A DNA stretch of 64,000 bases, from contig NZ_CP018022.1 in the NCBI RefSeq assembly GCF_001886495.1, positions 496,001 through 560,000 on the forward strand. Reading direction: 5' to 3'. Origin of the DNA: Spiroplasma sp. NBRC 100390. Lineage in GTDB: Bacteria; Bacillota_I; Bacilli_A; Mycoplasmatales; Mycoplasmataceae. The notes beneath the pieces were generated by a model. It was given only the letters and a program-made list of their open reading frames with translations. It was not told the DNA's origin and did not search any database. The translations under genes were made by a program, and so were the position numbers. Below are positions 1,470 to 45,315 of the stretch, piece by piece. Positions within the stretch are counted from its first letter, which is position 1. Every line of letters starts with the position of its first letter.

Positions 1470-1514
1470 AAAGTTTAATTTTAACTTGCATTTTAAAATT
1501 AAACTTTATATTAT
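1470..1514 (+). promoter_or_regulatory. Promoter with overlapping 15-bp palindrome (operator candidate) for the deoxynucleoside operon
   Basis: A -35 box TTGCAT (1486-1491) and a -10 box TATTAT (1509-1514) are separated by 17 bases. A perfect inverted repeat, AAAGTTTAATTTTAA at 1470-1484 and its complement at 1493-1507, brackets the -35 box, which sits in the 8-base loop, and fills the spacer. A dyad in this place is typical of a repressor operator, by inference a nucleoside- or deoxyribose-responsive regulator. The promoter lies just upstream of the riboswitch aptamer, so the leader would start near 1520. Confidence 0.6.
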
Positions 1515-1539
1515 TACTTTAACAACTTTAAAAAGCAAT

Positions 1540-1802
1540 TTTGGATGTTACGGGAATTAGGTGCAAGTCCTAGGCTGTCCCAGCAACTGTAAAGTGGATG
1601 AAAGCTAACATATGCCATTGAGAAGATACTTCTTGAGAAGGAATAGCGAGTAAAGTGAAACTGAGCCAGTAGACCGATCTAAAAAACATTGATATTTATC
1701 AGTGCTGCCTTTATAGTTATTATCCCTGGGGTTGGATAATTAATTATTTATTAGTGGAAAACTATTAAATAATAATTTGAAAGACGTCAAAAAGCGTTTT
1801 TT
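1540..1802 (+). promoter_or_regulatory. Cobalamin-type riboswitch and possible expression platform
   Basis: The leader carries the conserved blocks of the cobalamin aptamer in the right order. These are GGGAA with GGTGCAAGTCC (about 1552-1570), then CCAGCAACTGTAA (1579-1591), then a TGCCATTG...GAGAAGG arm (about 1612-1641), and the B12-box-like GAGCCAGTAGACC (1663-1675). Downstream are a hairpin at 1687-1704 and a stem AAAGACG/CGTTTTT at 1780-1801 that ends in T residues and could act as a terminator. The CATTG of the arm (1616-1620) could pair with CAGTG at 1700-1704, as in the kissing loop of this class. Known members respond to adenosyl- or other cobalamins. Here the controlled gene would be deoD and its operon, which is unusual. 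The class call is firm; the ligand and the platform are inferred. Confidence 0.85.
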
Positions 1803-2090
1803 AGTTGTTAATTTAAAGCGATAATCCTATTAGGGCATTATTTGAAATAATAATAATTAAAAAATTTTTAAGTTAATAAAACTAATTTTAAAATATTTTA
1901 TAATTTTAATTTTTTGTTAACTTAATTTATTAAATAAAATTCTTAATTAAACATTTCTTATATGAATATATTAAAATATTCCTTTTCGTTTTGTTTAAAT
2001 TTATTTTTAATAAAAAACATTTTAAATAATAACCTAATTAATAGGAACGTAAATCCAATAAAGGTACGAATAAAGGAAGGAAATAAAAAA

Positions 2091-2801
2091 ATGACACCAC
2101 ATATTAATGCAAAACAAACTGATATTGCAAAGGTTGTTTTAATGCCTGGTGACCCGCTACGAGCAAAAGCAATTGCTGAAAAATATTTAACAGATTATAA
2201 GTTAGTTAATGAGGTTCGGAATATGTTTATGTATACGGGGAAATATCAGAACATTGAAATTACAATTGCTGGAAGTGGGATGGGTTGTCCAAGTATTGGA
2301 ATTTATTCATATGAATTATTTAAATTTTATGATGTTGACTATATTATTCGCATTGGCTCAGCAGGTAGTTATAAGTCAGAACTTAAACTATATGATATTT
2401 TTAATGTTCGCGCAGCGTTTGGGGAAAGTAATTATGCAAAGATTGCCGCAAATATTGATGATAATCTGATTTCAGCAAGTGAAAACTTATTTAATACCAT
2501 TGAAGAAGTGGCGTTAAAGCAAGGAATTGAGACACATACTGGTATTGCCCATGCTGCTGATGTTTTTTATCGTTATGATGATTCATTATCATTTACCGAA
2601 AAACATAATTTAGATGTTGTTGAAATGGAATCATATGCCTTGTTTGCTAATGCAATTGTTACTAAAAAACAAGCAGCAACATTGCTAACTATTTCTGACA
2701 ATCTTGTTACAAAACAAGCAGCTTCAGCAATGGAACGTCAAAATAATTTTATGGCAATGGTGCAATTAGCATTAGCAACGGCAGTGCAATTAATTAAATA
2801 G
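2091..2801 (+). CDS. deoD: Purine-nucleoside phosphorylase DeoD type
   Basis: This cytosolic enzyme cleaves purine (deoxy)nucleosides with phosphate to the free base and (deoxy)ribose-1-phosphate. The 236-residue product has the usual family length. It shows MPGDPLRAKAIAEKYL near the N-terminus, the GSGMGCPS phosphate and ribose region, RIGSAGSY, VEMESYALFANA for ribose contacts, and TISDN at the catalytic Asp position. I chose the ATG at 2091 because AAGGAAGGAAA lies just upstream and the family starts here; an in-frame ATG at 1962 would only add 43 hydrophobic, unconserved residues. It is the first gene of a five-gene operon behind the cobalamin-type leader, with a deoxynucleoside kinase 18 bases downstream. 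Confidence 0.96.
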   Translation: MTPHINAKQTDIAKVVLMPGDPLRAKAIAEKYLTDYKLVNEVRNMFMYTGKYQNIEITIAGSGMGCPSIGIYSYELFKFYDVDYIIRIGSAGSYKSELKLYDIFNVRAAFGESNYAKIAANIDDNLISASENLFNTIEEVALKQGIETHTGIAHAADVFYRYDDSLSFTEKHNLDVVEMESYALFANAIVTKKQAATLLTISDNLVTKQAASAMERQNNFMAMVQLALATAVQLIK

Positions 2802-2819: not shown

Positions 2820-3443
2820 ATGAAAATCGCTGTTTTTGGTACTGTTGGTGCTGGTAAAACAAAAGTTAGTGAAGCATTATGTCAACAGTTAAACTATAAT
2901 TTATTTAAAGAACCCTTAGAAGAAAACCCATATTTTAATGATTTTTATCAGGATATGAAGGGATTTGCGTTTAAGATGCAAATTTATATGTTAACAACCA
3001 GAATTGAACAATTTTTTGAAATTGATAATTTAGCAGATACTGTTTTTGACCGCACAATTTTAGAAGATCCTGTTTTTGTTCGGGTTTCACATTTGCTAGA
3101 AATTATGAATGATGTTGATTTTAAAGTTTACAATCGTTTTTTTCAAAATGTTATTACGCCAATTTTAAAACAAAAATTAGGCTTTGATGTCATTATTTAT
3201 TTAAAAGTCTCAACAGCAAAAGCAGTTGAACGGATTAATAAGCGTGGCCGGATATTAGAATTAGAAACACCATACCATTATTGGGAAAAATTAAATGAAC
3301 AATATGAGGTCTTATATGATGAACTAAAGGATGATTATCATTTCATTGTTGTTGATGCTGATAACGATAATTTTGCGGAAAAGATGACCTTTATTATGCA
3401 GAAATTATTAATGATAGATAATAAAGTTCCTTGTTTAATTTAA
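2820..3443 (+). CDS. Deoxynucleoside kinase (deoxyadenosine/deoxyguanosine kinase family)
   Basis: It phosphorylates deoxynucleosides to monophosphates, the committing salvage step for dNTP supply. The 207-residue protein has a P-loop GTVGAGKT at residues 7-14, a DRT motif (residues about 79-81) matching the family's DRS/ERS substrate-side motif, and a LID-like RINKRGR. Length matches the mollicute dAK/dGK family. GGAGGAG precedes the ATG. It sits between deoD and transketolase in the salvage operon. Substrate preference (dA, dG or dC) cannot be read from the sequence. Confidence 0.93.
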   Translation: MKIAVFGTVGAGKTKVSEALCQQLNYNLFKEPLEENPYFNDFYQDMKGFAFKMQIYMLTTRIEQFFEIDNLADTVFDRTILEDPVFVRVSHLLEIMNDVDFKVYNRFFQNVITPILKQKLGFDVIIYLKVSTAKAVERINKRGRILELETPYHYWEKLNEQYEVLYDELKDDYHFIVVDADNDNFAEKMTFIMQKLLMIDNKVPCLI

Positions 3444-3488: not shown

Positions 3489-5474
3489 ATGAAAGATACA
3501 AATAATAATATTGAAACAAAAAGCCTAAGTAATTTACGAATTTTAGGCTTAGATCCAATCATTTATAATAAAACTGGCCACCCGGGAATTGTTTTAAGTG
3601 CGGCCCCAATGATACAAGCAATTTACTTAAACAATTTAATTGCTAATCCAGCTGTCCCTGATTGAATTAACCGTGATCGTTTTGTTTTATCACCAGGGCA
3701 TGCTTCAACGCTTCAATATGCCATTTTACACTTTGCTGGTTATGATTTATCAATTGATGACTTAAAAAATTATCGTCATATTAATTCAAAAACACCAGCT
3801 CATCCCGAATATGGAATAACACCAGGAGTTGATAACTCATCGGGACCATTAGGACAAGGTGTTGGTTATGGTGTTGGGATGGCGTTAGCAGAACAACATT
3901 TAGCAGCAAAATTTAATAAACCAGGATATGACATTATTGATCACTATACTTATGTTTTGTGTAGCGATGGTGACTTACAAGAGGGGGGAGCGCTTGAGGC
4001 AATCCAACTAGCTGGGGTATGAAAGTTAAATAAGTTAATTATGCTGTATGATTCAAACGATTGTCAACTAGATACAAAGTGTGATGAAGTTTTAAAAGTA
4101 AACTATCAACAGTTTTTTGAAGCACAAAATTGAAATTATATTCGAGTGGATAATGCTGATGAAAATTTGACAGCAATTAAAAAAGCAATTGCAACAGCAC
4201 AAAAGAGTGATAAACCAACTTTAATTGAGTGTAAAACAATTATTGGTTATGGTCATCCAAAACAAGGTTCACCAATGCATTCGTCACCATTTACTCCCGA
4301 GGAAATGCAACAAGTTCAAACTTTCTATGATTTTGAACATCCCCAATTTTATGTTGACCCGGATGTGAAAACTTATTGAAAAGATACTTTTATTAAACGT
4401 GGTCAAGAAGTATATCAAACATGATCAACAAAATTAGAATCTTATCAAACTGCTTTTCCAAAAGAATACGAACAACTATTTGCTATTCCCGTTGTTGAAT
4501 TAGATGCTTTTCAGTCTTTGTTAACAACTGATAAAAATAAAAAAGCAGGAACAAGAATTATTATGGGTGATGTTTTTAAATATTATCAACAAAAATGTCA
4601 TAATAATATGTTTGGTGGTAGTGCTGATTTGGGGACAGCGACAAAAATTATTGGTTATAATGGGTCATGAACAATTAATAGTCCCCAAAATAATAACATT
4701 CATTTTGGTGTTCGAGAATTTGCGGCTGGAACAATTAGCATTGGGATTGAATTACATCAAGGTTTAAAAAGTTTTAATTCAACGTTTCTAATTTTTTCTG
4801 ATTATATGAAACCATGTATTAGAATGGCGTGTATTCAAAACTTACCCGTTATTTTTGCTTTTTCACATGACTCAATTGGGGTTGGTTTTGATGGGAAGTC
4901 ACACCAACCAGTTGAACAATTAGCAATGTTACGAAATTGCCCAAATTTAAATGTTTTACGACCAGCCGATATTAATGAAGCAATTGGTTGTTTAAAACTT
5001 GTTGTGGAAACAAAAACAACACCTTCAGCATTAATTTTATCGCGACAAGATACCCCATATCAATTAGCTGAAACTTGTTATAAACAAACCTTACAAGGAG
5101 GATATATTGTTGTTGAAGAAGATAAGACAAAACCATTAGCGGCAATTATTATTGCAACGGGGACAGAAGTACCGATTGCTATTACTGCTGCTAAAACAAT
5201 GAAAGCGAATATTCGTGTTGTTTCAATGCCTTGTGTTGAATTATTTGAACAACAGCCACCAGCTTATCAAGAAAAAGTAATTCCAAAAAACTTTTCAAAA
5301 GTTATTGCCATTGAGTTTTCTAATGATTATGTTTGATATAAATTTGTTGGTAAAACTGGTTTAGTGATTGGTGTTAATGATTATGGTTTATCAGGTAGTG
5401 CTGATGCTGTTATTAAATACAAGGGTTTAGATCAAGACGCCATTATTCAAAGAATTGAAAAATATTTAGGTTAG
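3489..5474 (+). CDS. tkt: Transketolase
   Basis: A thiamine-diphosphate enzyme of the non-oxidative pentose phosphate pathway that moves two-carbon units between ketoses and aldoses. The 661 residues read through several TGA Trp codons. Visible marks are [11 protein letters not shown], the substrate-binding [12 protein letters not shown], the TPP/Mg motif SDGDLQEG, the HGHPKQGS-type loop (as YGHPKQGS), and [20 protein letters not shown] in the pyrimidine-binding domain. AGGAGG lies 9 bases before the ATG. It stands in the deoxynucleoside operon, followed after 3 bases by an aldolase, which suggests that sugar phosphates released by nucleoside cleavage enter central metabolism through this gene set. 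Confidence 0.97.
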
Positions 5475-5477
5475 ACC

Positions 5478-6098
5478 ATGAATAATTTACCCAAAGTTTT
5501 AGAACAGAAAGTTTTTTATGTTATTCGTAATCAAGATTATAATGTTGCTCAACAAATTTGTGAAATGCTAATAAATTTGCAAGTAACATGTTTAGAATTA
5601 ACTTTTACAATTCCAAAGGTTGAATTATTAATTAAAGCATTACGTAAAAAATACCCAACAATTTTAATTGGGGCTGGGACTGTTTTAACATTAGCAGAAG
5701 CAATATTAGCGGCAGAAGCAGGAGCACACTTTTTAGTCGGGCCCGTTTTTAATCGTGCGGTTAGTGATTTTTGTCATCAAAAAGGATTATTATATATTCC
5801 TGGAGCAATGACGTTACAAGAAGTCACAAATATTGTTAATGCCAACTGAGAAATTATTAAAATTTTTCCAGCAAATGCTTTTAAATTAAATTTTATTCAA
5901 ACGTTAAAAACCTTTTTTCCAACAAAAATATATATGGCTTCTGGTGGGATTAATTTAACAAATTTAAAAGAAGCAAAAGATTTGGGGTATGACTTAGTAG
6001 CGGTTGGTGCTTTTGTAACGGGTGATATTAATACCAAAATTCTTGAACAAGAAAAAATACAAACAATGATTAGCACAATTAGCCAAGAAGGAGGATAA
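5478..6098 (+). CDS. KDPG/KHG aldolase family protein
   Basis: The 206-residue product matches the length and motifs of 2-keto-3-deoxygluconate-6-phosphate aldolases. LELTFT carries the catalytic Glu, IGAGTVLT is the phosphate-loop region, and IIKIFPANAFK carries the Schiff-base Lys, with ASGGINL near the C-terminus. The known reaction splits KDPG into pyruvate and glyceraldehyde-3-phosphate. No other Entner-Doudoroff gene is visible in the window, so the natural substrate may be another 2-keto-3-deoxy acid. It starts 3 bases after transketolase and ends 2 bases before the deoxyribosyltransferase, so it belongs to the same transcript. Confidence 0.88.
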
Positions 6099-6100
6099 TA

Positions 6101-6682
6101 ATGCAAGATAATAAAAAAGTAATTTATAATGCTGGGAGTATGTTCACTGAAGCACAATGAAATACACGAAAAACAGAAGGAGAACGGTTACGAGCAATGT
6201 TTCCAGATTTTATTATTGGAAATCCAGTTGATTTTGAAACAAATCAAACAGTTCGTCCAACTAATAAAGCAATTTTTGAATTAGATTATGCTGGTTTGAC
6301 CGCCGCTGATTATGTTATTTTTGAATTAGATGGCTGAGATTCTGGAACGCATATGGAATTTGGACTAATGGTAGAACAAGCAATCCATAATAAGAAAAAA
6401 TATCTATTTCCAATTATTTCTGATTTTCGATTACAACAGGGGATTTTAAGAGGAGAATGCCCTGGTTTTGGTTTAAATGAAATGCTAACTGGAGCATTAT
6501 ATTATGAACAGTTAAATAGTGGCAATGTTCCACAAATTACTTTATGTAGTTCACATGCAATGGCATGTGCGGCAATTAAAGCAATTGAAACAGGAGATAT
6601 AACAAATTATCGCCAGAAATATGATATAAAAGAAATCTTTAAAGAAGATAAATTGTATCATGGCTTTGATTGTCATATTTAA
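6101..6682 (+). CDS. Nucleoside 2-deoxyribosyltransferase
   Basis: This enzyme swaps the base on 2'-deoxynucleosides through a covalent deoxyribosyl-Glu intermediate. The 193-residue protein shows YNAGSMFTEAQW at the N-terminus, a DGWDSGTHMEFG block in which Glu86 is the likely nucleophile and Asp77/Asp80 are active-site acids, and a conserved C-terminal half. AAGGAGG precedes the ATG. It closes the salvage operon with deoD and the deoxynucleoside kinase, so the three together can interconvert imported deoxynucleosides. A strong terminator follows. Confidence 0.9.
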
Positions 6683-45155: not shown

Positions 45156-45178
45156 GTAGACATGAAAATAAATAATAT

Positions 45179-45315
45179 ACCTGTATATGCTAGAAATATG
45201 GTCTAGTGTTTCTACGTCTTACCATGGGAAAAAGACTCTATAGGTTAATGGTTTTGCTTTTTAAACATTAACCCTTCACATTTTAATTGAAAATAACGGG
45301 CTAATGTTTTTTATT
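45179..45315 (+). promoter_or_regulatory. Guanine-type purine riboswitch with antiterminator and terminator
   Basis: P1 is ACCTGTA/TATAGGT (45179-45185, 45239-45245). P2 is CTAGA/TCTAG with loop AATATGG, J2/3 is TTTCTAC, and P3 is GTCTT/AAGAC with loop bases ACCATGG that can kiss the P2 loop. The base just before the 3' strand of P1 is C, the position that selects guanine or 2'-deoxyguanosine over adenine. The platform is legible: GGTTAATG (45243-45250) overlaps P1 and pairs perfectly with CATTAACC (45266-45273) as antiterminator. CATTAACCC can instead pair with GGGCTAATG (45298-45306), followed by T6AT6, as terminator. Ligand should therefore switch the gene off. Confidence 0.92.

Follow-up and report, generated by a model that had tools for sequence, protein, structure and literature searches.

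Results

A Deoxynucleoside Salvage Gene Set behind a Riboswitch

The window analysed here is a stretch of 64,000 nucleotides from the 1.2-Mb genome of Spiroplasma sp. NBRC 100390 (contig NZ_CP018022.1, positions 496,001 to 560,000; this genome is called G000 below). On its plus strand, five closely packed genes stand behind a riboswitch. The first, deoD (2091–2801), encodes a purine nucleoside phosphorylase, which confirms the reading of an earlier note on this DNA: its product scores above the cut-off of TIGR00107 (247 bits; cut-off, 232). It is followed by genes for a deoxynucleoside kinase (2820–3443; PF01712, 133.8 bits, cut-off 27), a transketolase (3489–5474; TIGR00232, 689 bits, cut-off 682), a KDPG/KHG-family aldolase (5478–6098; PF01081, 99.3 bits, cut-off 27.8), and a nucleoside 2-deoxyribosyltransferase (NDT)-family protein (6101–6682; PF05014, 32.2 bits, cut-off 28.8). 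Since deoD and the transketolase gene each have another genomic copy (65% identical at G000:258480 and 43% identical at G000:639951, respectively), the operon appears to be a separate, regulated set. The kinase and deoxyribosyltransferase genes adjoin deoD while the breakdown enzyme DeoC is encoded elsewhere in the genome, and this arrangement indicates salvage and not breakdown. Transketolase and aldolase have no clear role in salvage, which alone does not account for them.

The promoter, as read from the sequence, consists of a -35 box TTGCAT (1486–1491), a 17-nt spacer, and a -10 box TATTAT (1509–1514). It lies directly 5′ of the aptamer, and transcription would therefore start near 1521. 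A covariance search matched positions 1–189 of the Rfam Cobalamin model (RF00174) to 1526–1696 on the plus strand with 79.2 bits (E = 7.6e-18), well above the curated cut-off of 31.5 bits, and the family core motifs are retained. The earlier note had picked out aptamer blocks in their proper order and proposed a cobalamin riboswitch on a deoxynucleoside salvage operon. The match to the whole model bears out the blocks and, together with the identities of the operon genes, supports the proposal. Models of the 2′-deoxyguanosine (RF01510) and purine (RF00167) riboswitches find no match between 1200 and 2400 at E values up to 10.

Elsewhere in the window, a purine riboswitch (RF00167, 51.4 bits; 45161–45260) lies upstream of a gene for a lipoprotein that resembles the nucleoside-binding subunit of a transporter, and nucleoside uptake in this stretch therefore appears to be riboswitch-controlled too.

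The Leader and Its Expression Platform

The leader extends as far as deoD at 2091, and its block from about 1475 to 1822 is conserved across the nine genomes of the genus with a riboswitch on the deoD operon. In the promoter segment (1470–1519), 45 of 52 alignment columns are identical, versus 8 of 106 immediately upstream. Past the terminator, at about 1822, conservation falls from 81%–94% identical columns to 55%. Loop L5 (1576–1582, UGUCCCA) is complementary to loop L13, CUGGGGUU (1726–1733), which the fold places on the 7-bp stem of hairpin P13 (1713–1747). A scan found this kissing partner in eight of the nine deoD leaders; it did not find one in the leader of G008, a genome in which deoD and the transketolase gene are broken. 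We had also considered as L5 a UGCAAGU loop whose complement, ACTTGCA, lies in the promoter palindrome, and dropped it: the published kissing loop is the CCC-containing loop, whose partner is 1726–1733. A second hairpin (1748–1778; 29 of 31 columns identical) is predicted by the fold and, if fully extended (1738–1755 with 1761–1778), would overlap both P13 and the 5′ arm of the terminator.

Next comes a hairpin resembling an intrinsic terminator (1777–1804; UUGAAAGACGU-CAAAAA-GCGUUUUUUAG and a T run; -8.6 kcal/mol), with 25 of 28 columns identical over 1779–1806. The earlier note had suspected a terminator before deoD. A stem with a T run is indeed there. Like the stems of the other deoD leaders, however, it is weaker than its homologues in the sister leaders, and a consensus terminator scan does not list it. 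In the minimum-energy fold the first nucleotides of the transcript (AACAACU..AAAAAGC, 1521–1536), which overlap the 5′ strand of P1, pair with 1795–1809 on the 3′ side of the terminator, GCGUUUUUUAGUUGUU. We call this predicted antiterminator P0; its 3′ strand includes AGUUGUU (1803–1809), directly after the terminator-like hairpin. The P0 duplex has an energy of -11.8 kcal/mol, which 5 of 500 shuffles reach. The deoD ribosome-binding site, AAGGAAGG (2073–2080, likewise read from the sequence), lies approximately 270 nt 3′ of the terminator.

Is this platform joined to the aptamer? Other leaders, in which both strands differ, are still complementary between the 5′ end and the terminator across the T run (ACAACTAAA, AACTAAAAAATG, TTGAAATAAAAACA, GAAATAAAAA, AATAAAAACA), and several sister leaders have strong terminators at the site homologous to 1777–1804. 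This comparative pairing supports the predicted P0 and terminator as the aptamer's expression platform, and the persistence of the complementarity in leaders of different sequence, with strong terminators at the same place, points to transcription attenuation.

B12 Machinery in the Same Genome

The earlier note had suggested that the riboswitch couples salvage to cobalamin, and the rest of the genome contains the B12 machinery that such a coupling calls for: a class II ribonucleotide reductase, an adenosyltransferase, three further cobalamin riboswitches (four in total), and a riboswitch-led locus predicted to serve uptake. NrdJ matches NF005991 over residues 17–859 of 859 (1320.8 bits; cut-off, 854). 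It is the sole PF02867 protein of G000 and its only class I or II reductase. The adenosyltransferase is BtuR (PF02572, E = 1.9e-44); the PduO-type adenosyltransferase (PF01923) and the B12-binding domain PF02310 are absent from all 14 genomes of the genus.

One riboswitch heads a locus that is convergent with nrdJ and encodes a membrane protein together with a predicted subunit of an ECF-type transporter. The small membrane proteins of this locus give Pfam matches that are weak at most. We infer that the riboswitch-led transport genes serve cobalamin mainly because of an operon in G148 (L127), where a riboswitch, a DUF4430-like protein, an ECF-like protein, and BtuR occur together. A genome-wide search for DUF4430 itself gave no match, although a riboswitch-led protein of a relative has a weak one. 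The G148 operon offers a good handle on the group's genes for cobalamin uptake. The two other riboswitches of G000 head candidates for B12 capture: at L033 (G000:1116437) a lipoprotein and a small membrane protein, and at L034 (G000:37819) a secreted protein and a lipoprotein. The two L034 proteins that were scanned match no Pfam family.

Distribution across the Order

How widespread is this machinery? Among 248 genomes of the order, 35 have a cobalamin riboswitch above the cut-off, 32 have NrdJ above its cut-off, and 42 have BtuR. The riboswitch occurs together with NrdJ in 23 of the 35 riboswitch genomes (p = 9e-17) and with BtuR in 33 of them (p = 2e-30), both p-values being computed over the 248 genomes with kinship ignored. 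The presumed absence of B12 metabolism from Mollicutes is not borne out in this order, where 32 of the 248 genomes clearly encode a class II reductase. In three genomes (G073, G121, and G147; L248, L249, and L250) of another family of the order, one that has NrdJ and BtuR, AdoCbl-II-like aptamers precede lipoprotein-like genes.

Two riboswitch targets recur in the order: the predicted uptake genes and the class Ib reductase genes nrdF-nrdI-nrdE. The latter follow a riboswitch in 16 genomes, three within the genus and 13 outside, and in G003 a riboswitch lies upstream of the class III genes nrdD-nrdG. Within the genus, the riboswitch is found on the deoD operon in nine genomes and on nrdFIE in three, and in none on both. 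The salvage operon therefore occupies the position that a B12-independent reductase has in sister species. G001, which has NrdJ, carries two riboswitches that head neither nrdFIE nor deoD. A motif scan of 80 deoD loci from public genomes found the riboswitch–deoD pair in S. poulsonii and S. phoeniceum only, and our literature search found no paper linking Spiroplasma with cobalamin riboswitches.

Clustering of the aptamers places those of deoD with the uptake aptamer of G003 and G006. On this result we rejected the idea that the deoD aptamer derives from that of nrdF.

In a neighbouring genus, class Ib nrdF is preceded by a shortened cobalamin-like element in six genomes (G050, G070, G111, G117, G133, and G156; L244:282–391, L245:347–458, L246:304–409, L247:334–416, and also L253 and L261). 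Rfam reports it in five of the six, below the cut-off each time, and all six fall outside the sets of genomes that have BtuR or an above-cut-off NrdJ. The elements share the core changes GCACCUG and GUCAG and keep an L13-like hairpin and a terminator; they may be relics or variants with another ligand. Three further relatives (L257, L259, and L260) keep pieces of this leader without its core. In three genera, 2′-deoxyguanosine (2dG-I) riboswitches lie upstream of nrdF (L265, L267, and L269; G060, G105, and G018). As a cobalamin-like element and a 2′-deoxyguanosine element thus occupy the same place, control of nrdF in these Mollicutes has changed hands between riboswitch classes.

Proposed Mechanism and Alternatives

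We consider it highly probable that the riboswitch turns off transcription of the salvage operon when B12 is available, with adenosylcobalamin as the most likely ligand; the riboswitch family and the gene set suggest both the ligand and the OFF direction. Binding of cobalamin would stabilise P1 and the L5–L13 kissing loop, and their closure would break the P0 antiterminator, so that the terminator would form and RNA polymerase would stop approximately 285 nt into the leader. As long as B12 is present, deoxynucleotides would come from NrdJ and the salvage genes would be unneeded; with B12 absent, NrdJ would be idle and deoxynucleoside salvage would be turned on.

Might the leader be a cobalamin riboswitch by descent alone, now a nonfunctional relic on a constitutively expressed operon? 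The weakness of its terminator stem relative to the sister leaders would fit, as would the visible decay of the same locus in G008 and, in part, in G004 and G012. We think this unlikely: G000 and its NrdJ-bearing close relatives G009 and G010 retain the core motifs, P13/L13, P0, and the terminator, and conservation drops just past the terminator.

Some cobalamin riboswitches regulate translation, and the direction of switching is not certain from sequence, so that a translational switch or an ON switch deserves consideration. The conserved RNA ends at about 1822, and its distance from the ribosome-binding site at 2073 disfavours translational control. The terminator/antiterminator layout shared by leaders of differing sequence also argues against such readings, and we regard them as quite improbable.

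The earlier note had raised drift of the aptamer to another adenosyl or deoxyadenosyl ligand, and an RNA that responds to a deoxynucleoside or 5′-deoxyadenosine would sense the products of salvage directly. The operon does handle deoxynucleosides, and nrdF of related Mollicutes is under a 2′-deoxyguanosine riboswitch (found here; PMC12268651). Such drift is very improbable, as the core motifs are kept, with a full-model score well over the cut-off, and in relatives the same RNA heads predicted cobalamin uptake genes, the adenosyltransferase gene, and nrdFIE. The grouping of the deoD aptamers with an uptake aptamer and the retention of NrdJ and BtuR in the genome speak against it as well.

The earlier note had also seen a perfect 15-bp inverted repeat at the promoter and taken it for operator-like. 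The repeat is present (1470–1507; arms 1470–1484 and 1493–1507); it surrounds the -35 box and ends before the -10 box, and perfect repeats of this kind number five in the window and none in eight Markov simulations of it. A protein bound there as the main control, with the riboswitch secondary, can hardly be right, because the repeat is perfect in G000 only and pair 1477/1500 is mismatched, without compensation, in all eight relatives while the promoter is retained. The palindrome is thus probably not a conserved operator, its symmetry being lost where the promoter is conserved.

Genomes without NrdJ

Five genomes (G002, G004, G007, G008, and G012; L038, L042, L051, L052, and L061) have the riboswitch–deoD locus but neither a class I nor a class II reductase; coupling to NrdJ is therefore impossible in them today. 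The leaders of G004 and G008 have core-motif changes and that of G012 has one changed base in P5; these changes look like decay. The leaders of G002 and G007 appear intact.

One could speculate that in this clade the B12-independent supply of deoxynucleotides has passed from ribonucleotide reductase to the salvage operon, and that with transketolase, aldolase, and DeoC the operon may build deoxyribose. We give this idea little credence. If it were true, the NrdJ-less genomes would get by with neither a class I nor a class II reductase, and the cobalamin riboswitch would toggle between reductive synthesis and a reductase-free route.

Discussion

In Streptomyces, a B12 riboswitch on nrdABS represses a B12-independent ribonucleotide reductase. 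The logic that we propose for the Spiroplasma locus is the same, a B12-independent supply of deoxynucleotides being repressed while the class II enzyme works. The repressed unit here is a salvage pathway and not an isozyme, and sister species have the nrdFIE and nrdDG versions of the arrangement.

If our reading is correct, cobalamin riboswitches control not only uptake, synthesis, and isozymes but also an entire bypass pathway for DNA precursors. A 2009 survey found that most Mollicutes use neither nickel nor cobalt (PMC2667541); the predicted uptake genes, adenosyltransferase, class II reductase, and riboswitches described here amount to an overlooked B12 regulon in this class. One prediction is that host B12 decides the deoxynucleotide route of insect symbionts such as Spiroplasma poulsonii.

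A parallel in cofactor logic is the metE riboswitch with the MetE/MetH pair, where the B12-independent route is shut down by the cofactor on which the B12-dependent route relies (PMC9600662); MetE is an isozyme, whereas the salvage operon reaches the same end product by another pathway. In Mesoplasma florum, a 2′-deoxyguanosine riboswitch controls ribonucleotide reductase (PMC12268651). Both systems govern deoxynucleotide supply in Mollicutes and set a terminator against a P0 antiterminator that uses a P1 strand. They differ in aptamer and in signal: the ligand there is a nucleoside product, and here it would be the cofactor of a competing enzyme.

As an RNA, the Spiroplasma element resembles the known cobalamin riboswitches of family RF00174, whose structures have an L5–L13 kissing loop (PMC9600662), in its full aptamer, its L5–L13 partner, its position in the 5′ leader, and its predicted OFF logic. 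It departs from them in its antiterminator, which is built from the first nucleotides of the RNA, as in the other Mollicute leaders examined, and in its target, a deoxynucleoside salvage operon. The aptamer is an ordinary one; DNA-precursor salvage is a new target for the cobalamin riboswitch class, and what is new lies in this target pathway and in the replacement pattern among sister species, not in the RNA fold.
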